Below, piece after piece: positions 4,156-62,841 of a stretch of DNA of 64,000 bases; the first letter of the stretch is position 1; every line of letters begins with the position of its first letter. Source of the stretch: Ischnura elegans (lineage: Eukaryota; Arthropoda; Insecta; Odonata; Coenagrionidae); contig NW_025791658.1 of the NCBI RefSeq assembly GCF_921293095.1, forward strand, positions 5,456,001 through 5,520,000. The letters run 5' to 3'. Below the pieces are notes generated by a model that saw nothing but the letters and a program-made list of their open reading frames with translations, was not told where the DNA came from and ran no database searches. The position numbers and the translations under genes were made by a program.

Positions 4156-5888
4156 CAGTGAGTCCTCGTTTAACGTCACTTACCATTCCTGAAAAATGTG
4201 GCGATAAACGAAATGACGTTAATCGAAACATAATATCCCATAAGAAACAATGTTAAAAGTGAATATCGGCTCCTAGACCTCACAATTCCTACACGAAAAA
4301 ATTTTAGCGAATCATATCTGGGGCATTTTTACGATGGGAATGCCAAACTATGGCATAAATACAGGCGGTCCCCGACTTTCGTACACAATGCGTTCCCGAA
4401 AACTTGTACGAAAGTCGAATTGTACGAAAGTCGAACCATTGACTTCCATACTAATTAGGGGTTACGTTACAAAAGAGCGGAATTTACGTACTAAAACCTT
4501 TTTTTTCACGGAATTCATTTCAATTGACTTAATTTTAATAAAATATTAATAAAACTCCTCAAATCATATAATTTATTTCGAAAATACGCAGAAAATGCAA
4601 ATATAAGTTTAAAAAAACAAGAACTCCGTTGACTATCGAGTGAAACTTCCTCTTGGCGTTTAAGTTGACATTCCACTTATTACGTCCACTATAAATAAAA
4701 GGACATATCAAGCAGCATAAAAAATGTATTCGTTGAACCCGCACTCTGGATACCTTTTAATTTTTACACCAAAATTCGATGTTTGGCAGGTGACATTCGT
4801 GATCGCGTATATTCCGCATGTTATTCAAAAAAGACAAAAGACAAACGGAATTCGGGTGATATGTCGTGCAATATCGTTGCTGAAGGTTTACATGAATTAA
4901 ACAGCACTCAAACGAAAAAACACAATTAGAAAGAAGGTCTTACTAGTTTTATTGAAAGCTATTCGATGATGTCTAGTCAACTTCTTTTGAAAAATATCTT
5001 CAATGAAGGCTTTCCTCTTCTCTTGATAAAGGAGCCTATAGCAGGCAGTCTCTCTCCCAAATAAATCACCTAGATCAGAGTCAATTACCAACAATTCCCT
5101 TCATTATGTACGTTCATATTGTTCGCATATACTGCCGATACTGCAATTTGAAACAATTGAATGTTGGGATGCGCAATAAACATAGCGGGAATTTTAAAAA
5201 AATTACAGACCAGCGTCCGAAAGTCCGAATTTAGCGTACGAAAGTCGAGTAAAAGGTGTCAATTTTGAACGTACGAAAGTGCGAATTGTACGAAAGTCGA
5301 GTGTACGAAAGTCGAGGACCGCCTGTACGAGTTCCTGTCTTCATCGACGACAACAGCAGCAGTGACGTAAATCCTTCTCCATTTTTGTATCTTCCCACAT
5401 TTGCTTTCCGGCTTCGCTATGGTGGTCGCCCGGGCAAGCGTCGCCTGGGCATCATCATCGCTGAAACATCGTCGCAGTTACAGGAACCAAAATTATTGTG
5501 GACACGGCGAAAAAAGTGACAACAAAAGCTCCGAGTTCTACAAGGAAAAATTCCTTGAAATCACTTTTTAGGTTCCTGAAAACCATTATGTCAAGTAAAA
5601 CCTTGCGCACCTACCTAAAATTTCATTTTGCAGAAAATTTGCAAAAACCATAATCGCAATTAACAATAAACACACCGTTTTACACTTCGTTTATACTGAC
5701 TGTATATTACCGCTCGCAAAACGAACAACCTGCAACGCCCACCACTTCGCGTTTTTTCTCGAGCGAAATTTAAAAGGCATGACGCTATTGCGAAGCGAAG
5801 GTGCGATAAACGAATGACGGTCTCAAAATTTTCGTGACGTTATCGCGAAATGACATTAAACGGGGTGACGTAGAACGAAGACTCACTG
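4156..5888. mobile_element. MITE family M2, copy 1 (interrupted)
   Basis: TA-bounded element beginning CAGTGAGTCCTCGTTTAACG and ending GTAGAACGAAGACTCACTG. It is split by an M1 element at 4362-5325; removing that insert gives sequence collinear with the uninterrupted copy at 6742-7552. The inner ends are rich in GTTATCGC/GCGATAAACG-like motifs. No transposase is seen. Confidence 0.85.
4362..5325. mobile_element. MITE family M1, copy 2, nested in M2
   Basis: 964 bp, starting CAGGCGGTCCCCGACTTTCG and ending GTCGAGGACCGCCTG, flanked by TA (4360-4361 and 5326-5327). The host M2 element reads GGCATAAA-TA before it and TA-CGAGTTCCTGTC after it. The uninterrupted M2 copy has GGCAGAAATACGAGTCCCTG at 6940-6959, so the target was a single TA. 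Confidence 0.9.
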
Positions 5889-10234: not shown

Positions 10235-10320
10235 TTAACCCCTTACGAGTCTAGCTCGTCATGAACTTTCGATGCCAATCCGCGCAATGACGAGTGTATC
10301 TCGCCATAGGGTATTTATAA
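10235..10320 (+). mobile_element. TTAA element end with paired palindromes (family E)
   Basis: TTAA at 10235-10238 is followed by CCCCTT. Two imperfect palindromes share ACGAG at one side: ACGAGTCTAGCTCGT (10245-10259) and ACGAGTGTATCTCGC (10290-10304), centres 45 bp apart. The layout is that of the TTAA elements at 44545, 45638 and 51271. The other end of the element was not found. Confidence 0.5.
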
Positions 10321-19459: not shown

Positions 19460-20872
19460 ATGGAAGTGGGAAACCCTACCAACTATCTCTTCCCTGAACA
19501 CATGGAGTACAACCAAATGAGCCTCGGAATCTCATCGCCCGGGACCCGTCCGCAAAGGGCGGTTGTCGGGCACGGCAGCGAGGTCGGCAAGGTCCTCGGG
19601 GTCGCCAACATGCGAAATCCTTGCAGAGACTTATCATCATCACCATCAGCAGCAATGAAGAAAGAAGAAAAGAAGACCAAGAAGATGGAGAAGAAGAAGT
19701 CGGCTGTAAATGTAGGGACGTGGAATGTGAGGACTATGATGAGGGCGGGGAAATTAGAAAATATCAAAAGGGAAATGGATAAAGGGAGGATAGACATCTT
19801 AGGATTATGCGAGGTGAGGTGGAGGGATGGGGGGGACTATTGGAGTGATGGGTATAGGGTTATATATAGTGGAGGGGAAGAAAGCCAGCGGGGGGTAGCT
19901 TTAGTACTAAACAGGAAGATGGGTAAGCGTGTGGTAGGTATAGACCAGGTAAGCGATAGGATTCTGGTGGTAGAAATTGAGGCACGGCCCACCAACCTTG
20001 TGGTGGTCCAAGTTTACATGCCCACTAGCAATCATAGGGAGGAAGAAGTAGATGAGGTGTATGAACAGCTCGAGGAAATAATTAGAGACACACCGGGTAA
20101 GAAAAATCTGGTAGTGATGGGGGACTGGAACGCCTCAGTCGGGGAAGGCAGGGATGGAAACGAAATAGGAGATTTTGGTCTAGGAAAACGGAACGACAGG
20201 GGAGAGAAAGCAGCAGAATTTTGTAGGAGAAACAAATTATTCATCACAAACACGCGGTTCAATCATCATAAAGGGCGAAGGTACACGTGGAAAAGTCCAG
20301 GGGATGCGGGGAGATATCAAATAGACTACATTATGGTAAGACAGAGGTTTAGGAATAGTGTGAAAAACTCGCGCAGCTTCCCTGCAGCAGATGCGGATTC
20401 GGACCACAATCTAGTGCTCATGAAATGCAACGTAAGATTCAAAAGACTTATAAGAGTTAGGAAGACGAAGAAATGGAACGTAGAAGCCCTGAAGGGGAGT
20501 ATGAGGAGAGAATATCAGGAGCTAGTGGACATTAGTATACGGGAGATTGAAAGTACCAAGACGGTAGAGGAAAGATGGGATAATATAAAAACGGGAATAG
20601 TCAAAGCGGCGGAGAAGTCAATTGGTTACGTTGACATTAGAAGGATAAAGAAGCCGTGGATAACGGAGGCAATGGTAAATGAAATGGAGGAGAGGAGGAA
20701 GTGGAAGAACGTGGACACAGAACAGGGAAAAAGAATGTATAGGGAATTGAATAATCGATTACCACGTGAAACTAAGAGGGCAAGGGAGGCTTGGTGGAAA
20801 ACACAATGTGAGGAAATGGAAAAGTTCCAGAAGGATGGAGAAGTAGGCCAAATAGTTGTACGCCAAAGTTAA
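19460..20872 (+). pseudogene. RTE endonuclease region
   Basis: Apurinic/apyrimidinic-type endonuclease that nicks target DNA to prime reverse transcription. Visible in order: NVGTWNVRTMMRAGKLENI (about residue 84), LGLCEVRWRD (catalytic Glu), VQVYMPTSNH, VVMGDWNASVGEGRDGNEIG, TWKSPGDAGRYQIDYIMV and ADSDHNLVLM (catalytic Asp-His). These cover the usual exonuclease-endonuclease-phosphatase motifs. The first 75 or so residues of this frame are not recognisably part of the domain. The frame ends just after the linker to the RT, where a shift moves it into the frame that opens at 20856. Confidence 0.85.
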
Positions 20873-22028
20873 GTTGCTATCGGGCGGCAAAAGAGGACAA
20901 ACCATGTCTAAAATTAAGGCTAAGGATGGGAGGATGCTAACCGAGCGAGCAGAGGTACAGAGTAGGTGGAAGGAATACGTGGAGGACCTGTATGACGGAA
21001 TGAACAGACCAGAGAGATTGACTCTAGAGGAGGAAAGTGCAGTGGAGGAGGACAATCTTGGGCCGGGGATATTAGATTCGGAAATAGAGAGAGCACTTCG
21101 TGATATGAAGGCTAGGAAAGCAGTAGGCGTGGACAATATCCCGTGTGAGCTTCTGAAGAATCTAGGGAAGGAAGGTAAGAATAGGTTTTTCGAACTAGTG
21201 CGCAGGATCTACGAAGAGGGATGTTGGCCGGAAGATTTCGTGAAGACGGTTTTAATTCCGCTTCCGAAGAAGAAGAAAGCTGTGGAATGCGGAGATTATA
21301 GGACTATCAGCCTAATATCGCATGCGGCGAAAGTGGTACTGAGGATATTGAACAGACGAATGGAGGAGAGGGCAAACGAATATTTGGGCGAAGATCAGTT
21401 TGGTTTCAGAAAAGGGAAGTCAACTCGTGATGCAGTAGCAATAATGAGGTCCCTCGTGGAGAGGAGGCTAGAATATGACCAGGACGTATATGCGTGTTTC
21501 GTGGATTTTGAGAAAGCGTTTGATAGGGTGAACTGGGTGAAGCTAATGGATATTCTCAAGAGAATGGGTGTAGATTGGAGGGATAGACGACTGATTCGTA
21601 ATCTGTATATGGCCCAGACTGCGCAAGCGAGGATAGCGGACGGAGAATCTGGGTGTGCAAGCATTGGCCGAGGTGTGAGGCAAGGCTGTCCTCTATCGCC
21701 GCTGCTCTTTAACGTGTACGCTGAAGAGATGGTAAGGGAAGCGTGGGATGAGTTAGAAGCTGGGATAAAAGTGGGAGGAATGATGTTCAAATCAGTGAGA
21801 TTCGTGGATGACCAAGCGTTGATCAGCCAGTCAGCGAGGGGGCTTCAGGCTCTAGTGGATGCGTTATACGAACGTTGCGAGGAGTATGGGATGAGGATTA
21901 ATCACAAGAAAACTAAGGTTATGCGGTTTTGTAAAGCATCACGAGCGAGGAATGTGAGACTCAAGATAAAGGTGGGTGGTGAAAAACTTGAGCAGGTTGA
22001 GCAATTCAACTATTTAGGCAGTACGTAA
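20856..22028 (+). pseudogene. RTE reverse transcriptase region
   Basis: Copies the element RNA into DNA at the nicked target. Visible in order: KAVGVDNIPCELL, VLIPLPKKKKAVECGDYRTI, FGFRKGKSTRDA, ACFVDFEKAFDRVNW (motif A), GVRQGCPLSPLLFN (motif B), SVRFVDDQALIS (motif C, with FVDD where YADD is usual) and MRINHKKTKVMRF. It ends FNYLGST at an in-frame TAA. The FVDD variant keeps both catalytic aspartates. The domain is complete, so only the frameshift and the stop disable the element as read. Confidence 0.85.
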
Positions 22029-22562
22029 GAGGAAAACGGATACAGTAGTAAGGACATCAGGAAGAGAATAGCATTAGCGAAGGAGGCGTTCATGAACAGG
22101 AAGGAGCTTCTGAGAGGATCGTTGTGTAAGAGTTTAAAGAAAAGGCTGGTGAAGAGTTTGATTTGGAGTGTAGCTCTCTACGGTGCGGAAACGTGGACAC
22201 TGAGGAAAGAAGACGAGAGAAGATTGGAGGCATTCAAGATGTGGGTATGGAGAAGAATGGAGAGGGTGAAATGGACGGAGAGGAAAAGGAACGACGAAGT
22301 GCTGGATATGGTTGGCGAGGAGAGGCAGCTTTTAGATAAGATACGCAGGAGACAGAAGGTATGGATGGAGTTAGTGCTTAGTGGTGAGGGGATGCTGAAA
22401 TGGGTGTTGGAGGGTAGAATGTTAGGTAAACGAGGGAGGGGAAGGAAAAGAATAGGTTTTTTAGATAGATTGAAAGAGAGTAGGCCTTACAGTGAATTAA
22501 AGAAGGCAGTGGTGGAAGGAAAGGGAGTCATTGTCATTGTTAAAGTAGAGTTCTTTGTCTAG
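22029..22562 (+). pseudogene. RTE C-terminal region after the stop
   Basis: Same frame as the RT and continuous with it across the TAA: EENGYSSKDIRKRIALAKEA, then LYGAETWTLRKEDERRLEAF, then MWVWRRMERVKWTERKRND, then RGRGRKRIGFLDRLK. This is the conserved tail of RTE-like LINEs. The last residues (VIVIVKVEFFV) are probably read-through into the 3' simple repeat and flank. Confidence 0.8.
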
Positions 22563-25654: not shown

Positions 25655-25970
25655 TTAACACTTTTAGAGCTGTGGGCCAATACTTTTGCCTTTGCTTCTC
25701 AGGACGATAAGTGCGGTGGGCCAATATATAGTCTCAGTGAATTTTTTTCAACTTTATGGCTAAGTACATATAATATCAACTCTGTTTTGATAAACTTTTA
25801 AATAAAAACATATACTACATGCAGCAAAAGAAAAAAACATCATTAACCCATTTAATCTCATTGATTAAAAAAACTGCATTTAGACCAGTAAAACATAATT
25901 TCATATTGCTTATATTTTGTGCTGTTTATAGCTTCGAAAAATGACAGGCCGATACATCAGCTCTTAAAAA
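25655..25970 (+). mobile_element. TTAA element with paired repeat (family G)
   Basis: TTAA at 25655-25658. GTGGGCCAATA occurs at 25672-25682 and 25716-25726, exactly 44 bp apart, as in the other TTAA elements here. The palindromes are decayed. A possible far end is GGCCGATACATCAGCTCTTAA near 25949. The assignment rests on the geometry and is tentative. Confidence 0.4.
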
Positions 25971-27369: not shown

Positions 27370-27825
27370 ATTGGAAAAAAATCAGCCGATTCAACTGAAA
27401 ATTTCAATTGCACTCCATTGAATTTTCATACATTCAATCGAATTACCTCATATTCAATTGTAAATCTGAATGTTAGGAAACTGAATTGAATTTAAAGAAA
27501 ATGTTCAATCGAATTTCCAAAAATTGAATTGGAAATCTGAATATTCAATTGAATATCAAGACATTTAATTGAATTTTTAAGAAAATATTCAATTGAATTG
27601 AAGGAATTTCAATTTAATTCACCCGCTAAGTCTCCGCCGGAATAGATTATAACGATAATCAAAAACCAACAATGACAGCTAATGAAGTGATAACGCAAAT
27701 TAAAACTACTATCATGACTTTCCTTTTAATGTTTGTTCAATTAATTGTTGAAAATTCAATTGAATTTTTAAAAAAATTGAAATTTGTTGCTTTTCAATTG
27801 AATATTTTTCAATTGATTATATCCA
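27370..27825. repeat. field of TTCAATTGAA palindromes
   Basis: At least fifteen matches to (T)TCAATTGAA or ATTCAAT(T/C)GAAT, packed in two blocks (27390-27622 and 27735-27815) around a short region free of them (27623-27734). The palindromes occur at irregular 15-40 bp intervals. This is not a simple microsatellite. Confidence 0.7.
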
Positions 27826-38661: not shown

Positions 38662-39203
38662 AATAGGGTGGTTTCCTATTATTTTTTTATTGCCTAAATC
38701 GAAAAGATTATTACTCCTGGAGTACATATTTCACGCTTTTAGATTTTTAAATGATGATATCTATTTTTCGTGATTAAATGAAAAGTGGAAAATTTCAAGC
38801 GCGCGAAAACGCAACGGGTAAGTAGGAATGATGGGAAAAAGTCTGTGTGACGTCGTTCTGGTTCCTGCTGCCGCAAGAGAGGTGACCTTGGGGCAAGGCT
38901 CTGAGTGCTGAGTGATATGACGCAGGATACTAGCTGGTAGCAGAGTACCCTACTTGCAGTTAGCCACTGGCTTAAATAAGGATTATTATTACCTTATCAA
39001 ACAAAGAAAACTTTCCAAACTTAGGTATTTTTAATGTGTGATTATTAAGACATGTTTCCCTGAGCTCTGTGCCTCGAGGAAAACTTTCCGACCTTGGCCA
39101 GTTTTAATAGGTGATTATGAAGAGATGTTTCCCTGAGATCTGTGCCTCATGCATGCATTGGTAATCTCAGACGATGTAAAACTCCTATCTACTCGTATAG
39201 AAA

Positions 39204-41789
39204 TGCTTTCATAAACTAAATTATATCATTATTTGTGGAGATTTCAATGTTAATTTTGATCAGGTAAACAATATGACTACTTGCTTGTGGGACCTTTTCT
39301 CAATTTATGATATTAAGCAAACAATATTTGTCCCCACTAGACAAACAGTTCAGTCTGCCTCTATTATAGATAATATATTCTGCAATCTACAATTCTGTAT
39401 AGGTCAAGCCATTGAGTCCCATCTTTCTGATCATAAGGCCATAGTTACAACCATAGAAGTACCAATATCCTCACTCTCGTCTTCCAAATCATTCTTCTCT
39501 AAAAAAAGAATTTTCACCTTGGAAAACATTGAAGATTTCTGCAATAATCTGCAACTTACTACTTGGGATCCTGTATATAGTGCAAAATCAGTGAATGACA
39601 AATTTAATAATTTCCTTGATATTTTCCTTACGCTCTTCAATGGTTGCTTTCCTCTTGTAAAAGCTAGTTCAAATAGACCTCAAAATAAAACCTGGGTTAC
39701 TCCTGAAGTAATACAAAATTCACAAATTCTAAAATCTCTGTGGTCAGCCTACAAAGCTACCAATGACAATGATATTAAGGAACAATATATTGCTTTCAAA
39801 AAGTACTACTCAAGTTTAATCACTACTACTAAAAGGACTTGTAATATCAAATCCATCTATTCTTCAGATAATAAATCAAAAACAGCTTGGAATATAATAA
39901 ATAACACCTCTGGAAAATTGAGAAAGAATAAATCACCCAAAGAAATCTTACACAATGATATTCTTGTTTCAGACACAGACATGATTGCAGTTAATTTCAA
40001 TACGCATTTTCTCAATCCCTTGAAAACATCATCTATGTTACAAGTCAATACAGATAATTGTCCTCAAAATAACTCTGTTCTAAATAACATGTACCTTTAC
40101 CCTACTAATGAGAAAGAAATAGAATCAATCATCAATAAAATTAATACAAAACACTCAGCTGGGTGGGATGGGGTTCCCTGCTCCCTCCTAAAGGGTAATT
40201 GCATAAGATATCTTCTTACTCCTATCACTCATTTGGTCAATGCCTCTCTCTCCTCGGGTATTTTCCCTGACAAACTAAAAATGGCAGTTGTAACCCCCTA
40301 CACAAAAAGGGTGATATTCAATCAATTGAAAACTATCGACCCATATCAAAACTTTCAGTTTTTTCTAAAATATTAGAAAGTGTCATTTCAAAAAGAATAA
40401 TGTCATTCCTGATAAAAAACAACATCTTATCCAAATCTCAGTTTGGTTTCATAGGTGGTCTTTTGGCAGAATTTGCCATTTATAAATTTATTGACTCTGT
40501 TCTTGAAGGTCTTGATCATCACCTCAATACCGTTGGTATTTTTTATGATTTGTCTAAGGCTTTTGATTCTGTTGACCATGAGACTCTCTTGAGGAAAATC
40601 CATATATATGGTATGAGAGGAATTGCAAACAATCTAATCAGGTCATTTCTTGAAAAAAGAACCCAGGCAGTAACCATTATAACCGATAACATGGTTAAAC
40701 ATACCTCACCTCACCAGGAGATATTGAGGGGTGTTCCTCAAGGCTCCATTCTTGGGCCCCTGCTTTTTTTGTTATATATCAATGATCTACCCTCACAATT
40801 AAAAGGAAATGTTTTTATGTATGCTGATGATACAAATCATCTACTGAAACATGATGGAAATATTGTTGTTCCCACTCAAAATGCTGTCATCAAAATGGAA
40901 ACATGGTGTTCAACTAACAAAGTGGCTATAAATAAATCCAAGTCTTCCTTTATATTTTTCCATCCTACTAAAAAAAAAATTGATTACAGCCCTTATATTA
41001 AATTTTCGGATTGTACTGTTAAGCGGGTTACTGATACCAAATTTCTAGGCATCTCCATAAATGAAAATCTAAACTGGGATACCCATATTAATTGTATTTC
41101 ATCCTCGGTGGCTTCAGGCTGCTACTTAATTAGACGGGTGATTCAGCTCACCAATATAGAAACAGCTAAATCAATTTACTATGCACATATTTATAGTAGA
41201 TTAAAATATGGTATTTTAGCCTGGGGTCACTCCCCTAAGTCAGTCCGTCTTTTTAAACTACAAAAATGGTCGGTAAGAATATTATGCAAAGCTAAAAAAC
41301 AAGCTAGCTGCCGTAATCTTTTCAAAAGGTTACAGATCCTTCCCCTTCCTTGTATATATATTTATTATGCTGTGATGTTAATAAGAGAATTTAAACAAAA
41401 GTTGTGCCTTTCCTTGAATAACGATATTCATGATTATCATACAAGAAGTAGAAATGAGCTCGCAGTGAGGCAACAAAATCTTTCTCTCTTTAGTAGAGGG
41501 CCTATCAATATGAGTATTAAAATTTATAATAAATTACCTAAATCAATCAAAGACGAAATCAGACCTGGCCTTTTCAAAGCAAAATTAAAAAAATATCTTT
41601 TAGATCATTGCTACTATTCAATTGATGAATTCTTTGAGGATGCCTCGCAACTAATGTAATATATATATATTGTAATATATTGTGAGTTTCTTTGTATTTT
41701 TGATTTGCTTTTTATGTTTTCCTGACGGGTGCTATATATGTATATTCATATCTTTTGTGTGACCAATAAAATATTATTATTATTATTAT
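39204..41789 (+). mobile_element. jockey/CR1-like LINE, 5' truncated
   Basis: Flanked by an 8-bp target duplication TATAGAAA (39196-39203, 41790-41797) and ending in an ATT microsatellite. The 5' end starts inside the endonuclease (GDFNVNFD near 39238). One frameshift near 40305 separates the frames 39273-40376 and 40400-41659. It is otherwise little decayed, so a fairly recent insertion. Confidence 0.9.
39273..41659 (+). pseudogene. LINE endonuclease end and reverse transcriptase (frameshifted)
   Basis: The first frame carries the end of the endonuclease (SHLSDHKAIVTTIEV, catalytic Asp-His) and the start of the RT (KHSAGWDGVPCSLLKGN). The second frame carries the rest: KSQFGFIGG, IFYDLSKAFDSVDHETL (motif A), GVPQGSILGPLLFLLYINDL (motif B), VFMYADDTN (motif C, YADD intact), then the C-terminal NRNELAVRQQN and KSIKDEIRPGLFKAKLKKYL. 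The frame breaks in the run ACACAAAAAGGGTGA, a one-base indel. All RT catalytic residues are present. Confidence 0.9.
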
Positions 41790-42793: not shown

Positions 42794-44308
42794 TCAAACA
42801 TGCACTTTCTTTGTATGAACATACACTCCGGCCTTGGTCTTAAAACATTTTTCACAATGTTTGCACTTGAAAGGCCGATCATCTGAATGAACAGCATAGT
42901 GTGTACGCAGAATGTGCCTCACAGCAAACCGCCTTTTACAAATGCCACACTCATGTGGTTTAATTTTCAAGTGGAAATTCCTAATGTGGGCTGACAAGTT
43001 GGTAGACTGTGCATAGGTCATGGGACACAAATGACATGCAAATCTCTTTTCAGGATCATGAGTTAGCAGGTGATTTCTCAAATCACTACTTGTGAGAAAT
43101 TCTTTTCCACATTTACCACATTTATGCAGGAGTTGTCCCAATTGGCAAATGCCGACATGGACTCGGTAGTACCTTTTGCTCAGAAACCTCTTTCCACACT
43201 TTGTGCAGCAGTATTTCTTTTCCAAAGAGTGGCAGTCTTGATGAAGTCCAAGTTCTGATTGGGATGGAAAACAAAGAAAGCAAGCACTACAGGTACGTGG
43301 TTTGTCCATATTATGCACATTTTTCAAGTGCACTACCACTTCGGCTCTAGACGAAAAGTTACCGTAGCATAAACTACAAATATATTTACTCTTGCTGAAA
43401 TGAATCGCCTCATGAACTTTCAATTCAGGCTCCGTAGGAAAAAATGTGTGACACATTGAACACTTGTGTGATTCTACAGATAGATGACAGAGAACTATAT
43501 GCTCACGAAGTTTTGACTTTAAGGAATGAGGCTTAGTGCAGTAATCGCAAATTACAACCCTTTCATATTGGTTTAGTTCCGTTGCCGATGTCTCATGGTT
43601 GACTACTTCAACACCCTCTTGTGTCCAGTTTTTAACAAAGGCTCCATCTTGTTTACTTAAAGTCCCCACAGAGGAATGAGAACCAACACAACTTGACAGT
43701 TTTTCAACAAATTTCCTTTGCTTGACTTTGAAGCTCACATCTGAGAGAAATGACTTCGCACCATTATCACTAATATAATTATTATTTATCGAAACACCAT
43801 CACTGTTGTCTAAAGACGCACTGGTTACTGGTGATGTGGTTTCGCACAATTTAGAGTTTACATGAAAAGTACTATCTTTGCCCTGGGTGTTCATCAAGGC
43901 ACTATCTTCAGCCCTTTTGGTTTTCAAACTCTTCAATTGATTGTTTAAATGCACAAAGCTCCTGTGCTCACACTGAAAGTCATATTTCTTCACGTGCCTC
44001 ACCAATTTCTTTTCACTTTTAAATTCTTTTTGGCACTTACCACAGCACAATCCATTCTTCAACAAACTCACTTCTCCAGACAACAACTTGTACTCCTCAC
44101 TTGAAAGTATTAAGTCCTTATTTTGTTCAAAGCTATCCCTAGTTTCCGTCTCCGCATGTTTCTTGGTGTGAAGTCTCAGCTCTTCCCGAGAGAGGAATTC
44201 TTTGTTGCACTTGTAACACCAACAAAACTCCACCTTCAGCAGTTCTTCTTCCTCCATATCACTTCCAGCTCTCTCTGTTTTAAAGGTCCCAGCTCCACTG
44301 CCTCTATC
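42794..44308 (-). CDS. C2H2 zinc-finger protein, terminal exon, paralogue 1
   Basis: One long exon, 504 codons plus stop, from acceptor TTTTTTTGTATAG, phase 0 (DRGSGAGTFKTERAGSD). Eleven finger-like units. The N-terminal pair is CYKCNKEFLSREELRLHTKK and CGKCQKEFKSEKKLVRHVKK, followed by an acidic/serine linker of about 150 residues. Then come a C-terminal array starting CDYCTKPHSLKSKLREHIVL and ending CKHCEKCFKTKAGVYVHTKK. Unit 7 ends HVGIC (C2HC). It is probably a nuclear DNA-binding factor. A Met (MEEEELLKVEF) could start translation, but paralogue 3 has Ile there, which argues for an upstream exon that I cannot find. Confidence 0.85.
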   Translation of the reverse strand, partial: DRGSGAGTFKTERAGSDMEEEELLKVEFCWCYKCNKEFLSREELRLHTKKHAETETRDSFEQNKDLILSSEEYKLLSGEVSLLKNGLCCGKCQKEFKSEKKLVRHVKKYDFQCEHRSFVHLNNQLKSLKTKRAEDSALMNTQGKDSTFHVNSKLCETTSPVTSASLDNSDGVSINNNYISDNGAKSFLSDVSFKVKQRKFVEKLSSCVGSHSSVGTLSKQDGAFVKNWTQEGVEVVNHETSATELNQYERVVICDYCTKPHSLKSKLREHIVLCHLSVESHKCSMCHTFFPTEPELKVHEAIHFSKSKYICSLCYGNFSSRAEVVVHLKNVHNMDKPRTCSACFLCFPSQSELGLHQDCHSLEKKYCCTKCGKRFLSKRYYRVHVGICQLGQLLHKCGKCGKEFLTSSDLRNHLLTHDPEKRFACHLCPMTYAQSTNLSAHIRNFHLKIKPHECGICKRRFAVRHILRTHYAVHSDDRPFKCKHCEKCFKTKAGVYVHTKKVHV

Positions 44309-44544: not shown

Positions 44545-45387
44545 TTAACCTTTTCCCTACTGTACACGTATATATACGTGTGGACGTTTCCTGACCCGGG
44601 AGACGACGGGCGTATATATACGTGTGAGATTTTCCCGGCAAGGATATCGAAAGCCGTATGTATACGTTTTCTAGCTCCCCCCCCCTTTTAGGACGGTCGT
44701 GGGTTTACGACGTCTTTGTCTCGGGACCCAACGCTTCGGGGTTTAGGATTAACCCTCGGAATCCGGGAGCAGGTACCCGGACCCTTCGTCTTTTAGAACC
44801 CCTCTCAGCGGTACGGGACAGCAGTCATTCAATTGTTTATGCAGTCAATTTTCGAAATAAATATTTGTTTATTTCTCAAGAAATATACACTAAGAATTGA
44901 ATTATTTGTGTTTTGAGCAGCGTTTACAATTTTTAAACGAAATTCTACGACAAATATTAACTTATATCTCGAGTTATGCATAAACATCAACATGGAAATT
45001 GTTGCTGCGTTAAATGCGTTGATAATGGCCTTAGAACTTCGTTTAAAATTTGACAATGCTCAGAAAAAAATGAGGAATTCAATTCAAAGTCTGTAATTTA
45101 CATGCAAGCAACAATTATCCATTTGCTAAATACATATAAGCAATACATAAGTTGACCGCGAACCAATGCGGCACATATGGTCGTAAACCCGGAAAGGAGG
45201 GAGCACAACTACTCTCGTAGTCCGAGATAATGCAAAGTCCCAGCGTGGAGGGGCCGAAAAAGGTTCAGCGAGACCATTCTTAACGAATGCCCTCCAAAAA
45301 TGCTCCGTACCACGAGAAAGAAGAGTCTCTTGGGGCTCAGTGCTGCAGTCACGCTAAGACGAAAACTCCGCCGTCTCGAAAGGGTTA
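44545..45387 (+). mobile_element. TTAA element family P1, full copy A
   Basis: 843 bp with TTAA at both ends (44545-44548, 45384-45387). Inside are CCTTTTCCC on the left and GAAAGGG on the right. The left end carries CACGTATATATACGTG (44565-44580) and CGTATATATACG (44611-44622), centres 44 bp apart, plus a weaker CGTATGTATACG near 44655. The right end has no such palindromes. No coding. TTAA targets with CCCTTT ends are the mark of piggyBac-type elements. Confidence 0.8.
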
Positions 45388-45519
45388 ACCTTCCGTCGGG
45401 CACAATGGATCTGACAGGCATAGCACAAGCATTTTTTTTCATTTATCTGAGCCACTATGCGGCATAGACCCTTGATGTTTATAGCAGCTGTTTGTTTTGA
45501 CATACTCTACACAGCGTTT

Positions 45520-46165
45520 TGCTTTTACACTGACAGATCAGTGGCGGATTATTTAGAATAGTTAGCAAATTAACAAAACACTGATCTTATAGAATTCACA
45601 TACTAAAATACATAACATATAATAATACTTAGTAGCCTTAACCCTTTCACTGCATTCAGGCCGATATATCGGCCATCGCTGGCTGAGCAAAAACTGCCAG
45701 GGGCCGATCTATCGGCCGGAATTATTTCACTTTTTTCGTGATTGTGGCCTTTTCAACAGCTGTAATTCATGTAGACCCTCATAATCTATCTATGGTTATA
45801 AGATGTAAATATATCTTAAGAATTGGGAAAAATATCTAGACGTATTAAATAAAATTTAATAGTTGAAAAATTTTTAAACCTGAAATGTTGCAAATTCTGG
45901 AAAATAGCCTTGGCAGTCTTCGTACATCCCACATAAACTGGGCTGGCGGTATAAGGTTAAGAGCACATTAAATCGCACCTTTTGCTTTTTGCATTCATGC
46001 CAACTGATCAGTGGCGGATTATTTAGTGTAGTTTAACAAAATAGATGCACAATTGATTAAAATGAAGCATCATTCGATGAATAAGTTAACAAATTAACAA
46101 AACACTGATCTTATAGAATTCATATGATAAAATGCATTACATATAATAATACTTTATAGCCTAAA
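45520..46165. repeat. tandem duplication split by a TTAA element
   Basis: GATCAGTGGCGGATTATTTAG ... ACAAAACACTGATCTTATAG ... TATAATAATACTT-AGCCT occurs at 45537-45638 and at 46008-46162. The second copy has about 60 bp extra in the middle. The element at 45638-45960 lies exactly at the end of the first copy; the second copy reads AGCCTAAATAGCATG through that point. Confidence 0.7.
45638..45960 (+). mobile_element. TTAA element family D, 323 bp
   Basis: TTAA at 45638-45641 and 45957-45960, then CCCTTTCACTGC on the left and GCGGTATAAGG on the right. Two palindromes, GGCCGATATATCGGCC (45659-45674) and GGCCGATCTATCGGCC (45702-45717), have centres 43 bp apart. No coding. Confidence 0.75.
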
Positions 46166-47093: not shown

Positions 47094-48620
47094 TTAAACC
47101 TTAATATGCAAATTCTTTGTATGCACATACAAAACGGCCTTGGTCTTATAACACTTTCCACAATGTTTGCACTTGAAAGGCCGATCGTCTGAATGGACAG
47201 CATAGTGTATACGTAGATAGCGCCTCACAGCAAACCGTTTTTTGCAAATGCCACACTCGTGTGGTCTTAGTTTCATGTGGAAATTCCTTATGTGGAGAGA
47301 CAAGTCACCAGACATTAAGAACTTCTTGGGACACATAAGACATGCAAAAGTCCTGTCAGGATCATGGGATAGCAAGTGAATTTTCAAATTACCACGTGTC
47401 AGACATTCTTTTCCACATTGATCACATTTATGCAAGAGTTGTCCCAATTGGCAAGCACTGACATGGATTCTGTAGTAACTTTTGTTCAGAAATCTCTTTC
47501 CACACTTTGGGCAGCAGTATTTCTTACTATCCAAAGAGTGGCAGTGTTGATGAAGCGCAAGTTCTGGTTTGGATGGAAAACAAAGAAAACAAGCACTACA
47601 GGCATGTAATTTGTCCATATTATGCACATTCTTCAAATGCATTGACACTTTGGCTCTAGATGAGAAGTTACCATGGCATAAACTACATAAATATTTACTC
47701 TTGCTGAAATGAATCGCCTCATGAACTTTCAATTCAGACTCTGTCAGGAAAAATGTGTGACATATTGAACACTTGTGGGAAACTATAGAGAGATGACAAA
47801 GAACTATATGCTCACGAAGCTGTGACTTTAAGGAATGTGGCTTAGTGCAGTAATCGCAAATTACAACCCTTTCATATTGGTTTAGTTCCGTTGTCGATGT
47901 CTCATGGTTGACTACTTCAGCACCCTCTTGTGCCCAGTTTTTAACAAAGGCTTCATCTTGTCTACTTAAACTGCCCATGGAGGAATGAGAACCAACGCAA
48001 CTTGACGGTTTTTCACCAAATTTCCTTTGCTTGACTTTGAAGCTCACATTTGATACAAATGACTTCCCACCATTATCACTAATATAATTATTATTTATCA
48101 AAACACCATCATTGTTGTCTAAAGACTCACTGGTTAACGGTGATGTGGTTTCACATAATTTAGAGTTTACATGAAAAGTACTGTCTTTGCCCTGGGTGTT
48201 CATCAAGGCACTATCTTCAGCCCTATTTGATTTCAAACTCTTCAAGTGATTGTTTAAATTCACAAAGCTCCTATGCTCACACTGAAAATCATATTTCTTC
48301 ACGTGCCTCACCAATTTCCTCTCACTTGTAAATTCTTTTTGGCACTTACCACAGCACAATCGATTTTTCAACAAACTCACTTCTCCAGACAACAACTTGT
48401 ACTCCTCACTTGATAGTATTAAGTCATCGTTTTGCTCAAAGCTATCTGGAGTCCCAGTTTCAGCATGTTTCTTGGTGTGAAGTCTCAGCTCCTCCCGAGT
48501 GATGAATTCTTCGTTGCACTCGTTACACCAACAAAACTCCACCTTCGGCAGTTCTTCTTTTTCTTCCATTTCGCTTCCAGCTTTCTCTGTTTTAAAGGTC
48601 CCAGCTACCTTACCCTTGTC
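47094..48620 (-). CDS. C2H2 zinc-finger protein, terminal exon, paralogue 2
   Basis: 508 codons plus stop from acceptor TTCTCTTTGAACAG, phase 0 (DKGKVAGTFKTEKAGSE). Same plan as paralogue 1: CNECNEEFITREELRLHTKK, CGKCQKEFTSERKLVRHVKK, long linker, then nine further finger units from CDYCTKPHSLKSQLREHIVL to CKHCGKCYKTKAVLYVHTKN. Unit 7 ends HVSAC. Its linker is closest to paralogue 1, but from the CDYC finger on it is almost identical to paralogue 3. About 310 bp of 3' flank (46785-47093) is also shared with paralogue 3. The role is presumably sequence-specific DNA binding; the target is unknown. Confidence 0.85.
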   Translation of the reverse strand, partial: DKGKVAGTFKTEKAGSEMEEKEELPKVEFCWCNECNEEFITREELRLHTKKHAETGTPDSFEQNDDLILSSEEYKLLSGEVSLLKNRLCCGKCQKEFTSERKLVRHVKKYDFQCEHRSFVNLNNHLKSLKSNRAEDSALMNTQGKDSTFHVNSKLCETTSPLTSESLDNNDGVLINNNYISDNGGKSFVSNVSFKVKQRKFGEKPSSCVGSHSSMGSLSRQDEAFVKNWAQEGAEVVNHETSTTELNQYERVVICDYCTKPHSLKSQLREHIVLCHLSIVSHKCSICHTFFLTESELKVHEAIHFSKSKYLCSLCHGNFSSRAKVSMHLKNVHNMDKLHACSACFLCFPSKPELALHQHCHSLDSKKYCCPKCGKRFLNKSYYRIHVSACQLGQLLHKCDQCGKECLTRGNLKIHLLSHDPDRTFACLMCPKKFLMSGDLSLHIRNFHMKLRPHECGICKKRFAVRRYLRIHYAVHSDDRPFKCKHCGKCYKTKAVLYVHTKNLHIKV

Positions 48621-48720
48621 CTGTTCAAAGAGAAACAAAGTTTGCACAACATTCCCAGAGTTCAAAATTAGTCCAAACTACTTTTTTCACAAAACAATAT
48701 TAGAACTCTAGAAGGAAAAT

Positions 48721-51270: not shown

Positions 51271-53567
51271 TTAACCCTTTCGCTGCCAAGGACGAAAATA
51301 TGCGGCAGGACGTTTCTCGACCTGGGAGACGAAAGGCTGAAATTTTCGTCTGAGATCTTCCCACGCACGTGAACGAATGCCGAAAATACACGTTTCCTTG
51401 CTCTCTTCCTTTTATGACATACGTGGGTTCGCAAAGTCTTAGTTTCGGCACCCAACACAGGCCATAAATGCCGAAATCCAGGAGCATGAACCTACCCCTC
51501 ATCTTATTGTTTTTTCCAAGGTCTTTGAAAAGCTATTTTACAACCGTATTTTTAGCTACCTAAACAGTTATAACCTTCTACACCCTTCCCAGCATGGCTT
51601 CATAAAAGGAAAGTCAACCACAACCGCTGCCTTTCACCTCATCAATAAGATAATCTGGGGACTTTCAAATAAGAAAGAGACTATAGGAATCTTTTTTGAC
51701 CTGTCAAAAGCTTTCGATTCTATTGACCACACCATACTTTATTCCAAACTCAGGAAAATTGGGATCAATGGCAATGCCTTATCTTGGTTAAAGTCTTATC
51801 TCTCAGACCGCAAACAATTAGTGCAGGTAAACCTCAACCTCAATTCAAACGCTCGTACTTTTAGATCTGATGTTGCCTCAACCAATTGTGGTGTACCACA
51901 AGGCTCTATATTAGGACCTCTTTTATTCATCATTTTCATAAATGATCTACATAATAACTTTCCAAACAATGAAGTTATATTATATGCGGATGATACATCC
52001 ACACTGAACATAGGTGACAATTTTCTAGATGCTAGCAGTGCAGCCCGTCAAACCTTAATAACTATGTCCAAATGGTCCCGGTCAAACAACCTACTTCTTA
52101 ATGAAAACAAAACATGCTTCATTCATTTTCATAATAAAACAAACCCACCAATTCAAAGCCCTCTTCTCAGAACAGACTCAAATATCACTATACTTCACTG
52201 TGACACCACTAAATTTCTCGGTTTATATCTCAATATGAACCTTGACTGGCAGCCTCACACAACCAAATTAATCAATAAAATGAATACTGGGATCTATATG
52301 ATCAGGAAACTTGCCCAAACTACCTCAACTCAGATTCTAAGTCTCATCTACTTCGCCAAAATCCATTCTTTTTTAGTTTATGGAATTGTATTCTGGGGTA
52401 ATAATAGTGCTGCAATAAAGGCATTTTCAATACAAAAGAGGGCTATCAAGAGTATGCTAAGGGTCTCAATTAGGACCCCAGGAAGACCCCTATTCAAAGA
52501 ACTTAAAATACTTAATCTCCCCTGTGTTTATATCTTGAATTGCTGTACTTTTGTGAGAAACAATAGGCACCCGTTATAGGCCCAACTCGTCAATCCATAA
52601 CCAGAGGACACGTGGTAAAGACAATGTCCATCTGAATAATCAGCCTTTAAATGTAAGCAGAAAAGGTCCTCACCACTCAGCCTCTATGGTTTATAATAAA
52701 GTTCCAAATCCAATAAAATGTGCAGTGAGTGATAATACTTTTAAAAATAAGCTAAAAGAACTGCTACTTAAGAAATGCTATTATAGCATTGATGAGTATC
52801 TTCATGACAAATTAATATAATTATGTATGTATTTAACTGCTAATCATTTATTGTAATTTCTATGTAACTTTTGTATATACTTTTCTTCCTTTTTTGACTA
52901 AATCCTATGTTATACTTGTATAGCCAACAGGAAATTAAATATTATTATTATTATTATATTACCCCTCTTTGTGGCAAGGGACCACAGTCATACAATTGTT
53001 CATTTAGTTAGTTTGCAAAATAAATATATGGTTCTTTCTCAAAAAATATAAACTAAGAAATGAATTCCTTGTCTTTTGAGCAGCGTTTACAATTTTTAAA
53101 TGAGATTCTACCATAAATATTAACTTATATCTCGATTTCAGTATCAAATCAACATGGAAATTGTTAATGCATTAAATTAATTAATGCTGGCTGTAGAGCT
53201 CATTCAAAATTTTAAAATTCTCAGAATAAATCGAGGAATTCAATTGGAAGACTGCATTTTACGTGCAAACAACAATCATCCATATAGCTAATTCATATAA
53301 ACAAAGCATGAGTTGACAGCAAACCAATGCCGCTGGTAGGGTTATAAACCACGAAAGGAGGGAGACCAACTACCCTCGAAGCCTAAGATAATGGGAAATC
53401 CCCACTAGGAAGGATCAAAAAAGGTTGGTGTTGAGAGTGTGTGATTATCCGCAAGACCCTTAACAAATGCCCAACATAAATGCTCCATACAGAGAAGACC
53501 GAAGAGTCTTGGGGCACAGTCCTGAATTCATGCTAAGGAGAGAACTCCACCGTTTTGAAAGGGTTAA
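51271..53567 (+). mobile_element. TTAA element family P1, copy B, split by a LINE
   Basis: TTAA at 51271-51274 and 53564-53567, inner ends CCCTTTCGCTGCC and TTTTGAAAGGG. Collinear with copy A, including GGGAGACGA and GAGCAGCGTTTACAATTTTT. The palindrome positions hold ACGAAAATATGCG and CTGAAATTTTCGTC, centres also 44 bp apart. A LINE is inserted at TACCCCTC. Confidence 0.8.
51502..52959 (+). mobile_element. jockey/CR1-like LINE 2, 5' truncated
   Basis: 8-bp target duplication TACCCCTC (51494-51501, 52960-52967) and an ATT tail. It starts inside the RT: SKVFEKLFYNRIF, HGFIKGKSTTTAAFHLI, FFDLSKAFDSIDHTIL, GVPQGSILGPLLFIIFINDL, ILYADDTS, then PGRPLFKELKILNLPCVYIL. A frame break after about 52555 precedes the last 240 bp of coding, which ends near LLKKCYYSIDEYLHDK. 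RT motifs A-C are present, but the N-terminal half and endonuclease are missing. Related to, but distinct from, the LINE at 39.2 kb. Confidence 0.85.
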
Positions 53568-57251: not shown

Positions 57252-58775
57252 CTAAACCTTAATATGCAAATTCTTTGTATGTACATACAAAACGGCCTTG
57301 GTCTTATAACACTTTTCACAATGTTTGCACTTGAAAGGCCGATCGTCTGAATGGACAGCATACTGTATACGTAGATACCGCCTCACAGCAAACCGTTTTT
57401 TGCAAATGCCACACTCATGCGGTCTTAGTTTCAAGTGGAAACTCCTTATGTGGAGAGACAAGTCACCAGACATTAAGAACTTCCTGGGACACATAAGACA
57501 TGCCAAAGTCCTGTCAGGATCATGGGATAGCAAGTGAATTTTCATATTACCACGTGTCAGACATTCTTTTCCACATTGATCACATTTATGCAAGAGTTGT
57601 CCCAATTGGCAAGCACTGACATGGATTCTGTAGTAACTTTTGTTCAGAAATCTCTTTCCACACTTTGGGCAGCAGTATTTCTTACTATCCAAAGAGTGGC
57701 AGTGTTGATGAAGCGCAAGTTCTGGTTTGGATGGAAAACAAAGAAAACAAGCACTACAGGCATGTAATTTGTCCATATTATGCACATTCTTCAAATGCAT
57801 TGACACTTTGGCTCTAGATGAGAAGTTACCATGGCATAAACTACATAAATATTTACTCTTGCTGAAATGAATCGCCTCATGAACTTTCAATTCAGACTCT
57901 GTCAGGAAAAATGTGTGACATATTGAACACCTGTGGGAAACCACAGAGAGATGACAGAGAACTATATGCTCACGAAGTTGTGACTTTAAGGAATGTGGCT
58001 TAGTGCAATAATCGCAAATCACAACTCTTTCAGACACATTTAGCTCGGTTTTCAATGTCTCATGGTTGACTGTTTCAGCACCCTCATTTGAAGTGGTTTT
58101 TAATAGAGCTTCATCTTGTTTCCAAAACCTAGCACTTGAGGAATTAGAACCAGCATGACGTTGTTTTTTTTCACTAAATTTCCTTTGTTTTGCCTTTAAG
58201 TTTACATCTGAAACACTTAACTCTCCACAAGTATCACTAATACATTTATTTTTTATCAAAATAACATTACTATTGTCTAATGAATCTCTGGTTAGTGGTG
58301 GTGTGGCTTCACACAATTTAGAGTTAACATGAAAAGTACTATCTCTGCCCTGGGTGTCCATCAAGGCACTATCTTCAGCCCTTTTGGTTTTCAAAATCTT
58401 TAACTGATTGTTTAAATTCACAAAGCTCCTGTGCTCACACTGAAAGTCATATTTATTCACATGCCTCACCAATTTCCTCTCACTTGCAAATTCTTTTTGG
58501 CACTTACTACAACATAATTTATTCTTCATCAAACTCACTTGTCCTGACAACAACTTGTACTCCTCACTTGAAAGTATTAAGTCATCGTTTTGTTCAAACC
58601 TATCTGGAGTTCCAGTCTCGGCATGTTTCCTGGAGTGAAGTCGTAGTTCCTCCCGACAGAGGAATTCTTCGTTGCACTCAGTACACCAGCAAAACTCCAC
58701 CTTCGGCATTTCTTCTTCTTCAATATCAATTCCAGCTCTCTCTGCTGTAAAGCTCCCCACCAGTCTACCCTTGTC
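57252..58775 (-). CDS. C2H2 zinc-finger protein, terminal exon, paralogue 3
   Basis: 507 codons plus stop from acceptor TTCTTTGTTGTATAG, phase 0 (DKGRLVGSFTAERAGID). Same eleven-unit plan: CTECNEEFLCREELRLHSRK, CSKCQKEFASERKLVRHVNK, a linker clearly different from the other two, then CDYCTKPHSLKSQLREHIVL through CKHCEKCYKTKAVLYVHTKN. In the tenth unit the first zinc-binding histidine is glutamine (YLRIQYAVH against YLRIHYAVH in paralogue 2), which should weaken or abolish that finger. The position of the Met of paralogues 1 and 2 is Ile (DIEEEEMPKVEF), so this exon probably depends on upstream coding sequence. Confidence 0.85.
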   Translation of the reverse strand, partial: DKGRLVGSFTAERAGIDIEEEEMPKVEFCWCTECNEEFLCREELRLHSRKHAETGTPDRFEQNDDLILSSEEYKLLSGQVSLMKNKLCCSKCQKEFASERKLVRHVNKYDFQCEHRSFVNLNNQLKILKTKRAEDSALMDTQGRDSTFHVNSKLCEATPPLTRDSLDNSNVILIKNKCISDTCGELSVSDVNLKAKQRKFSEKKQRHAGSNSSSARFWKQDEALLKTTSNEGAETVNHETLKTELNVSERVVICDYCTKPHSLKSQLREHIVLCHLSVVSHRCSICHTFFLTESELKVHEAIHFSKSKYLCSLCHGNFSSRAKVSMHLKNVHNMDKLHACSACFLCFPSKPELALHQHCHSLDSKKYCCPKCGKRFLNKSYYRIHVSACQLGQLLHKCDQCGKECLTRGNMKIHLLSHDPDRTLACLMCPRKFLMSGDLSLHIRSFHLKLRPHECGICKKRFAVRRYLRIQYAVHSDDRPFKCKHCEKCYKTKAVLYVHTKNLHIKV

Positions 58776-59770: not shown

Positions 59771-62700
59771 TTAACACATTCCGTGCTGACCGTTTTTTGA
59801 AGAAAATGCCCTGTGGCTGACTTTTTGGCAAAAATTTGAATTTTTTTATTATTATTTTAACGACGTAATCTTATGATTTGTGATGCCTGCTACATGTTTT
59901 CGTACTTTTTTTTTTAAATAACCCTTCATTTGTTAAAAATTTGAAATTTAAATTTTCTAAGTATCCTGTCAAACTTTTGATACCTTCCCACAACACACCT
60001 ACATGTTTCCCACATTTCTTTGCTATTTGTCAGTACTGTAGCGAAAACCTGTTCAGACTTTATCACTTTCTGGAAAAAACTAATGGAAATAGTAATGCAG
60101 AAAACATTATTTTTATAATCTGGAAATGATACATTCAAATACGATTTTAAATGTTTTATTGCTCAAAAGAAAATATTGCAAGTATTACCAACATTTCCAG
60201 TAAAATTGTTGCTCCCTATGGTGGAAAAATTATTATGAACGATATGATATCCTCTGGATAAGATTTTATAATGATAAACATTGGTTTATAAATGAAAGGG
60301 AAAATTTGTATAAACGAAGAATTGTTGCAATGAAACATGTTGTTTTACAAATAAAAAATTGACCAGCATTTTTATAATAATTTTTCAGTTACTAAATACT
60401 TCGCATAAAATAATATATTTTAAAATAAATATTGAAATAGAAAATATAAAAGGTAAACATTAAAAAATAATTTTTTCCCGCTGGGTAAATAATTTTCTGC
60501 ATCACAAATTCTTGTGATACTTCTGGAAACAGTCATGACACAATCGAGGATCAGATAGGCAGGTGGGGCTATAATATGATGTATCCTGGTGGACATTCTT
60601 CTTGAAGCACTGCCTACATCTCTTCTGTTTTCGTCTTTTCTGTCTATCGTGTTTTTCATATAATCGGGGAAATGTCCTAATAAGCCCTTGGTTTTGGTTG
60701 AGGCAGGCTAGGATGACTATCTCCTCAAAGGTATCGAAGGTAGAGATATTGTCATAAGAGATTCTATAACTGGAATTAGAAATTAGATGAGAGGAATTTT
60801 TCAAAAATTTTCTTTGAATAAAAATTACGTTTCAGCAATAGTGATTTCAGTAGGTGGATTCCCAATTTTTAGTACCATTTGATGAATTTTCTTTCAATGG
60901 GAAAGTCAGTCATCATTTGATCCCAATGATCGATGCCACAATTGTAATTGCTGTATTCAACCACCGCCTGTGGCTTTCTTGGTGTGCACCCTCGCCTTTT
61001 CGTATATTCGTTCATTTTTTGTACTGAATTCAGCGATGATCATCCGCACTTCCCTCTTATCCGTCCACCTTAGGATACCGATTTTATACTCATGAAAGGC
61101 CTCCACCACCTCACCTTTCTTCAATTCGTAGCAGAGCACCAAAAGAGGAATAACTTTCTTGCCTCTCCTCAGTGTCCCCGTCAAGTTAGGTTTCCCATTT
61201 GGATGGAATCTAGAACTGGCTACATTGTTATAAAAGTTATCAATATGAAAGGATTAGCCTCAGTCAAAATGATCCTCCATCATTTGTTTACCATCTTCTC
61301 CGACTGCCCTTTTCCAGTCACTTCTGAGTTGGAGGACCTGCAGCGCCAAACCCTTTGCTTCCGTCAACATATACAACTTCATTGCGTACCTGTAGCGCTT
61401 TCCCCACATATATTCACTATATCCCAGCCGAGCTCTCCATGGAATCATAGACTCTTCCAAACTTAGGTCACGTGAGCGGGTCACTACTTTTTCCATTGTT
61501 TCCTTGGATGCGTCTATATGGGGCTAATTTTGAATAATCAGTGGGCCAGAGGAGTGTTAGAGTTAGAGAACGTAGATAGGTTCTTGTTGATTTGAAGGGC
61601 TTGGAGAATTGACATGAATTGATCAAGCGACTTCTCTCTCCTGAAGCAATGCAAGTCGTATAAAGATCAAGCTTTTCAATTATTGGAGATACGGGAGATT
61701 TGGATAATTCTAGCACGAAAAATAAGGCCAAAAAGTGGGGAAATTCTTCTATGGTTAAATATTTCCATCTATTAAATTTCCTTCAGGACACGTATTGCCC
61801 ATTTTATATCCTCGGGCCGGATCTGTTTCTCCGAGTTCGGCGGCATGTAACTGGGTTAGAGGAAATTGTTCTCTTAGGCATTTTTTTGTTGGGGAGGATG
61901 CCAAATAGAATGCTTGTAAGTATTTCGGATATCATGGAAAAAATCAAGTAATGAGTCTCTAATTCAAATGCTAGTGAACATAAGGATGGGGAAGTCTGGC
62001 TATTGTGCATGAAATGTAAATAGTAAAAATAAATCGCAATGTGGAACCAGGACTTTACTGAAGTTATTGTAAAATTTATGCAAATATATTATTTCATGCA
62101 TAGCAGCAAATAAACATAGGGATAACAACAAATTTTGCCATGATGAAATCATAGCAAATAAAATTCACTCTGAAACTTTAAAAGTATAGGAACGGAAGGA
62201 TTTATTGTTATCGTAAGGATAAAAATGCACATACCTGGAGTATGCCCGAAATTAGGCAACCAGCTAAGCAATTTACCACGATAGCGTTAATTGACGTTAA
62301 AAATGAAAATAACAACAAGGGAAAAATATCTGTATTCCTTCTTGTAAAAACCAATTAAATAAACACAATCTAATCATTGCGTTAAAAGTCATAAAGAAAG
62401 ATAAAATACCTTGTAATAAAGTAATAACCTATCCACGTCAAATGTAAAAGTATCTTTTTATTATTTCGTTTTGAATATTTGTAAAAGTTTTTTTTAAGGT
62501 ACACGAACAATTGTGAGAATACACAACTGTTTTCTGCATTATAAAATGAAACTAATACAAAAGTACATTGTAAAAGGCCACCCCCAAAGACGTCCTTGCA
62601 GAGCAAAACCGGGTAAAATAGAAAAACAGAAAAAATCGAAAAAAAAATTTTTTCGGAGCTTTCCGCACGGCAAACAGGAGAAGAGTGGTCACTGACCCTC

Positions 62701-62841
62701 TCCCATACCCTAACAGCGGTGGCTGGCGCTCGGGGTGGAATATAACGCATAAGAGAATCATGACGTAGCGTCTACGTCATCAGTCACTGGGTAGTGGCTG
62801 CCATGACGTAGACGCTACGTCATCAGCACGGAACGTGTTAA
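59771..62841 (-). mobile_element. piggyBac element, 3.07 kb, decayed
   Basis: TTAA at 59771-59774 and 62838-62841, with inverted ends TTAACACATTCCGTGCTGA / TCAGCACGGAACGTGTTAA. Transposase remains lie on the minus strand between about 61.8 and 60.5 kb. The right end carries two 19-bp palindromes, TGACGTAGCGTCTACGTCA (62761-62779) and TGACGTAGACGCTACGTCA (62804-62822), centres 43 bp apart. The left end does not. Length and layout fit a once-autonomous piggyBac. Confidence 0.85.
60500..61750 (-). pseudogene. piggyBac transposase, broken
   Basis: The recognisable order on the minus strand is LSLEESMIPWRARLGYSEYM with GKRYRYAMKLYMLTEAKG (catalytic-core start, around 61.45-61.33 kb), then TGTLRRGKKVIPL and ILRWTDKREVRM (61.18-61.05 kb), then EYSNYNCGIDHWDQMMTDFP (near 60.93 kb, in another frame), and at the C-terminus RCRQCFKKNVHQDTSYYSPT with CLSDPRLCHDCFQKYHK, the cysteine-rich DNA-binding domain (60.63-60.51 kb). 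Several frameshifts separate the blocks. The DDE core is scattered over frames, so the gene is dead. piggyBac cuts and pastes at TTAA without a footprint. Confidence 0.85.

Follow-up and report, generated by a model that had tools for sequence, protein, structure and literature searches.

The closest described system is piggyBat of Myotis lucifugus. On its left end the motif GCGGGA stands at bp 11-16, 55-60 and 99-104, each copy lying 3 bp ahead of an imperfect palindrome (the third at bp 107-120), and the transposase-dimer sites of this end recur every 44 bp; the right end is described without such a palindrome (PMC11707139). Gel shifts were read by their authors as one dimer on a 44-bp end and two on an 88-bp end, residues of the C-terminal cysteine-rich domain (CRD) contact C19 and the complements of bp 19 and 20, and motif positions are given as bp 44-48 on the right and bp 55-60 on the left, with inverted motifs at bp 22-27 and 63-68 (PMC11707139). 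A 2026 preprint reports a structure with two dimers on the piggyBat left end, the outer one catalytic and the inner one inactive, with a sharp bend in the left-end DNA and an almost straight right end; the assembly is presented there as a departure from the rotational symmetry seen in known transpososomes (PMC13405395). In the piggyBac of Trichoplusia ni, a left palindrome at bp 17-33 is bound by a CRD dimer and the groove is narrowed at about bp 25 (PMC7351741). Pokey likely falls within the piggyBat CRD group (PMC11707139), and its authors raise titration by MITEs as a driver of divergence (PMC3849761).

Here, I describe TTAA-bounded elements in a single 64 kb stretch of DNA (the window), with one or two informative copies per family. 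An earlier note on this DNA had proposed that six TTAA ends carry paired palindromes at a spacing of 43-45 bp. The reading favoured here, with a probability of roughly 0.85 and by analogy with piggyBat, is that the paired palindromes would be tandem sites for dimers of piggyBat-type transposases of the piggyBac superfamily, gripped by their CRDs.

Geometry of the left ends

Offsets are counted from the first base after TTAA, which is position 1. The sequences named in the earlier note are all present where it placed them, with one mismatch each in the second copies of the ends called D and E. Clear palindrome pairs stand in three of the six proposed ends, those of the elements P1A, D and pB (a piggyBac-like element):

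44545..45388, plus strand: P1A element, 844 bp, TTAA at both ends, from BLAST of the P1 copies and TTAA ends
44564..44581, plus strand: P1A site 1, bp 16-33, centre +24.5
44608..44625, plus strand: P1A site 2, centre +68.5
44652..44669, plus strand: P1A site 3, centre +112.5
45638..45960, plus strand: D element, 323 bp, TTAA at both ends, right end starting CCTTATACCGCC
45659..45674, plus strand: D site 1, GGCCGATATATCGGCC, centre +25.5
45702..45717, plus strand: D site 2, GGCCGATCTATCGGCC, centre +68.5
59771..62841, minus strand: pB element, 3071 bp, left end at 62841, 15-bp termini CACRTTCCGTGCTGA at both ends
62804..62822, minus strand: pB site 1, TGACGTAGCGTCTACGTCA, centre +25.0
62761..62779, minus strand: pB site 2, TGACGTAGACGCTACGTCA, centre +68.0

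The third P1A site is absent from the earlier note, and GGCCGATCTATCGGCC is the D copy that carries the mismatch. The right boundary of D comes from terminal similarity in one copy. The remaining three proposed ends are less clear:

51271..53567, plus strand: P1B element, a relative of P1A, with a reverse-transcriptase-like ORF inside at 51821-52579 (by eye)
51290-51307, 51334-51351, 51378-51395, plus strand: three half-site-like repeats of P1B in the P1A register, weak palindromes
25672..25726, plus strand: left end of G (TTAA at 25655), carrying an 11-bp direct repeat at +14 and +58 with a lag of 44
10245..10304, plus strand: E left end, TTAA at 10235, repeats centred at +14 and +59, lag 45

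In P1B and G the repeats are in register but the palindromes are weak. Pairing over the three P1B sites extends to 14 of 27 arm positions, a figure not above expectation (P 0.17 and 0.09, two permutations); the P1A sites pair at 21 of 27. What had been given as palindrome centres in G are really the starts of an 11-base direct repeat, GTGGGCCAATA, which is hardly palindromic, and no right end of G was found in the window. The second repeat of E terminates in CTCGC rather than CTCGT; its first centre lies 11 bp nearer the tip than those of the other ends, as had been observed. E is set aside as a clean member, being 11 bp off register and uncertain at its right end, for which 10442 is a guess only; its membership is uncertain. 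A first centre about 25 bp from the TTAA is thus clear for D, pB and P1A, in register but weak for P1B and G, and displaced in E. A helical-phase argument offered for the spacing does fit, 43-45 bp being 4.1-4.3 turns at 10.5 bp, yet it is unnecessary, because the piggyBat pitch is that of successive dimer sites.

Identity between the two P1 elements is about 70% over their left ends and 75% over their right parts, and 86 of 127 ungapped positions agree. P1A uses the half-site ACACGTATA, P1B forms such as GGACGAAAA, with CGAAAA in 3 of 6 half-sites; parallel changes among half-sites exceed expectation (P 0.021 over all columns, 0.013 within sites) in an exploratory comparison of two copies, which gives a hint only of a concerted P1A-to-P1B change. 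Two more P1 copies are incomplete: one, with its right end at 3415, lacks the left end before sites 1 and 2, and the other, at 18855, retains the right part only. P1A also contains an internal inverted repeat (44881-44961 and 45018-45098, about 72% identical).

The broken transposase gene and the right ends

Among these elements a transposase gene is found in pB only, and it is broken:

60505..61782, minus strand: broken pB transposase gene, with DDE_Tnp_1_7 pieces and a zf-Tnp_2 C-terminal finger
59813..59820, plus strand: pB right-end inner motif GTGGCTGA, right-end bp 39-46, with a left counterpart GTGACTGA at bp 51-58
45911..45917, minus strand: D right-end inner motif ACTGCCA, right-end bp 40-46, the identical 7-mer standing at left-end bp 52-58
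45372..45377, minus strand: P1A right-end GAGACG, right-end bp 8-13

One DDE_Tnp_1_7 piece lies above the Pfam cut-off (34 bits vs 22.4) and two lie below, and the zf-Tnp_2 finger is just over its own (25 vs 24 bits). When the joined pieces were compared with the PDB, the piggyBat chain 9c0f was the sole transposase among the matches up to E 1 (E 1.7e-17), with about 205 residues aligned at 28% identity and a stretch of 4.7 bits covering the piggyBat CRD; the chain of T. ni piggyBac is absent from these matches. A core piece alone found piggyBat again (E 0.0042), and the CRD piece alone matched none of the transposases in the PDB; one cysteine position of the gene seems lost by eye. Searches at the protein level in viral contigs and prokaryote genome contigs confirmed no relative. 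DNA-pattern scans of viral contigs returned 8 + 111 stretches, 0 of the 119 matching the pB transposase up to E 1 (tblastn), and the 8 from the first scan are not piggyBac-like by eye.

P1A, P1B, D and pB are flanked by TTAA at both ends, and empty insertion sites were not seen. Their terminal inverted repeats have CCYT-like or CAC tips, namely CCYTTT in P1, CCCTTTCACTGC/CCTTATACCGCC (imperfect) in D and CACRTTCCGTGCTGA in pB; the CAC tip is known from piggyBat. Neither P1A nor D holds an ORF of at least 150 aa, so both are placed by their ends alone.

The earlier statement that only one end carries the sites stands for the four elements with both ends assigned: the right ends of P1A, P1B, D and pB have no paired palindromes, and in P1A, for instance, palindromes occur at the left end (44545) and not at the right (45388). 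The exception is a single half-site-like GACGTA at bp 88-93 of the pB right end. Otherwise pB and D each show one 7-of-8 palindrome in AT-rich sequence (bp 63.5, 86.5) with no second high one, and P1A and P1B reach at most 5 of 8. The left-end palindrome is missing from the right ends, so that these elements do not show the identical sites at both ends that mark the T. ni type.

Right ends may share shorter motifs with left ends. When left-end motifs were sought in forward orientation over right-end bp 19-100, the top matches were GTGGCTGA (right 39) for the pB motif GTGACTGA (left 51) and CTGCCAAG (right 41) for the D motif CTGCCAGG (left 53). Against 400 shuffles each, the best match within bp 34-52, a range set after the sequences had been inspected, has P 0.015 for pB and P 0.0075 for D. 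P1A and P1B gave no such inner motif (P 0.70 and P 0.39), and the P1A left end against the 18855 right end gave a borderline match (P 0.05); the GAGACG 6-mer of P1A, at left bp 52-57 and right bp 8-13, is 44 apart in register. A second core motif about 32 bp inside the first may thus be present in pB and D, and was not found in P1A and P1B, again in a range set post hoc. Matches in inverted orientation score alike (P1B 10.7 at bp 25, P1A/18855 11.4 at bp 65, pB 10.0 at bp 89), and two of them may be meaningful, as piggyBat too has inverted motifs.

Elsewhere the window holds non-LTR retrotransposon-like ORFs (19460-22562, 39273-41659) with endonuclease and reverse transcriptase by eye, and three C2H2-like zinc-finger ORFs, similar to one another by eye, at 42794-44257, 47094-48665 and 57252-58760 (minus), with transposable elements between them. 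Short tandem arrays of the unit GTACGAAAGTCGA lie at 2740-2785, 4404-4435 and 5271-5316, and a 73-bp unit stands twice in tandem at 39006-39148 (84% matches).

Chance, common descent and a host protein

With about a thousand TTAA ends to choose from, palindromes spotted by eye could be a product of chance, and P1B, G and E are indeed weak. The main scan used a composition-weighted score, with an offset of 24-26 and a spacing of 43-45 set from the literature, and ranked ends by the weaker palindrome of each pair. The top three of 1064 TTAA ends were D (12.5 bits), pB (12.2) and P1A (9.2), the next reaching 6.5. Among 200 Markov shuffles a best score of 12 never occurred, one of at least 9 occurred in 5, and a third-best of at least 9 in none. 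D and pB thus exceed all shuffles and the trio, which exceeds every third-best, is beyond chance; since 5 of the 200 shuffles match it, P1A alone is not, by this score, which leaves its third in-register site unused as extra support. The same three lead a wider scan (offset 22-28, spacing 42-46), where a best score of 9.2 or higher turned up in 2 of 15 shuffles. Exact 10-mer repeats at a lag of 43-45, starting at +8 to +28, occur in four TTAA ends (G, P1A, pB and an AT-rich array at 27617; D is absent), any being found in 4 of 60 shuffles.

Other anchors temper this result: among 14 further 4-mers, TATA and ATAA reach 12.2 in the main scan, TTAT 10.8 and TTTA 9.2, and an unweighted palindrome count does not separate TTAA from other anchors. 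With offset and lag left free, D ranked first, a repeat at 8247 second and pB third among the matches listed, P1A not being among the best 22; a second free scan had D, pB and P1A among 27 matches at several lags. Repeated palindromes turn up in these scans at further lags too, 23, 38 and 56 among them. On balance, an origin of the whole pattern by chance is highly improbable.

Two further candidates were set aside. The pair at 27617 sits in an AT-rich repeat region. In the dispersed repeat around 8247 and 55897 (minus), a pair of nearly identical palindromes, CCGCTACCTGCTAGCGG and GCTGCTACCTGCTAGCAGC in its first copy, lies at a distance of 23 bp. This repeat might look like a counterexample; it is not TTAA-bounded, because both copies share sequence upstream of the TTAA.

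Sequence comparison points to about three lineages rather than six independent families: P1, D (probably with G) and pB, E being uncertain. P1A and P1B are one family. G is probably a remote relative of D: over bp 1-90 each is the best match of the other among 1065 TTAA ends, with 43 of 90 positions identical in ungapped alignment, and they share the half-site GGCC(G/A)ATA; with G as query and bp 8-90 only, D tied first. That the bases differ completely between families, as had been claimed, proved too strong. ACG at bp 18-20 is common to P1A, P1B and pB, so the palindromes have diverged rather than being wholly unrelated; D and G are without CG at bp 19-20, and the CG of E at this place lies within an off-register right arm. 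Diversification under a fixed geometry accordingly holds for about three lineages.

The same resemblances raise the question of whether the spacing is merely inherited, all left ends descending from one ancestral piggyBat-like left end under no continuing constraint. The kinship of P1A with P1B and of D with G would fit, and so would the ungapped identity of the six left ends, which exceeds shuffles in 13 of 15 pairs (P < 0.05), partly through their common first 7 bp. When those 7 bp are dropped, however, comparison of pB with P1A, P1B, D and G places it only between 29th and 61st among 1065 ends. Moreover, the left ends of P1, D and pB have no mutual BLAST similarity at the thresholds used, yet their sites stay palindromic and 43-45 bp apart, and the two sites of D, like those of pB, agree more inside the palindrome than outside. 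Inheritance without constraint is rather unlikely. A host zinc-finger protein that binds the sites and silences the elements, for example a product of the window's C2H2-like ORFs, is very unlikely indeed: apart from the presence of those three ORFs nothing was found in its favour, the TTAA register, the one-endedness and the third site match piggyBat transposase sites, and C2H2 arrays usually read non-palindromic sequence.

A putative asymmetric assembly and its known relatives

The preferred reading, tandem sites for transposase dimers, keeps the part of the earlier proposal that saw paired dimer sites for a transposase; it does so by analogy, in that offset, pitch, third site and one-endedness match piggyBat and the broken gene of pB matches piggyBat as well. 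Under this reading the outer unit, with its palindrome at about +25, would hold the catalytic dimer that cuts at the TTAA, and the inner unit, at about +69 (with a third at about +113 in P1), would hold a non-catalytic dimer helping to bring the ends together. The right end, without paired palindromes, might be held mainly via core motifs, which may be repeated near +40 in two families. The spacing of the units would be fixed by the protein assembly, and the palindrome would follow the CRD of each transposase lineage and hence differ between families. P1, D and G may well be mobilised by transposases of this kind.

A bolder extension, possible rather than probable, is that left ends form a fixed 44-bp scaffold in which all tandem half-sites are rewritten together as the CRD evolves, perhaps escaping MITE titration, while pitch and right-end spacing stay fixed; the passage from P1A to P1B would then be one such switch caught in the act.

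The recurrence of left-end offset, pitch and third site, with a candidate right-end motif in two families, in about three other lineages suggests that an asymmetric four-subunit assembly may be general to the piggyBat-type part of the superfamily. As it is chiefly the palindrome that differs, these families could serve as natural CRD/target pairs for reading a recognition code.

As to tandem left-end sites of this kind, the literature searched gave piggyBat only, as far as the texts consulted extend, and a metagenomic survey of the superfamily to which the 2026 preprint refers may already cover part of the ground. With the piggyBac of T. ni the present elements share the TTAA target and a left-end palindrome; unlike that transposon, in which the same palindrome is described at both ends in an asymmetric arrangement (PMC11707139), they have two or three at one end and none paired at the other. 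The human MER75, MER75B, MER85 and Looper likewise have TTAA and subterminal inner inverted repeats, in MER75B at one end only; MER75, MER85 and Looper, unlike the elements here, are described with them at both ends (PMC12324416). The coral CMITEs are TTAA-flanked, piggyBac-related MITEs with CCYT termini (a hallmark) and several families per genome, but they measure about 100 bp, keep a conserved interior with varying termini, and are presented in the cited account with no mention of paired palindromes (PMC2872659). Pokey of Daphnia offers a parallel, as two of its lineages occupy one genome, differ in their terminal repeats and have MITEs that match; it differs in that its description names no subterminal palindromes, "palindrom" and "subterminal" being absent from the text cited (PMC3849761).

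The nearest likeness, as far as the cited descriptions of it go, is with piggyBat itself: a palindrome near bp 25, steps of about 44 bp, up to three sites, none at the right end, and a candidate inner right-end motif at bp 39-46 in pB and D, against bp 44-48 in piggyBat. All three piggyBat positions are found in P1A and two in D and pB, which differ from it in having two sites at a pitch of 43; the palindrome sequences differ as well. The explanation is thus known in outline from piggyBat, and what is new here, about three lineages sharing this geometry with differing palindromes, suggests that the layout is common to other families despite the changed letters.
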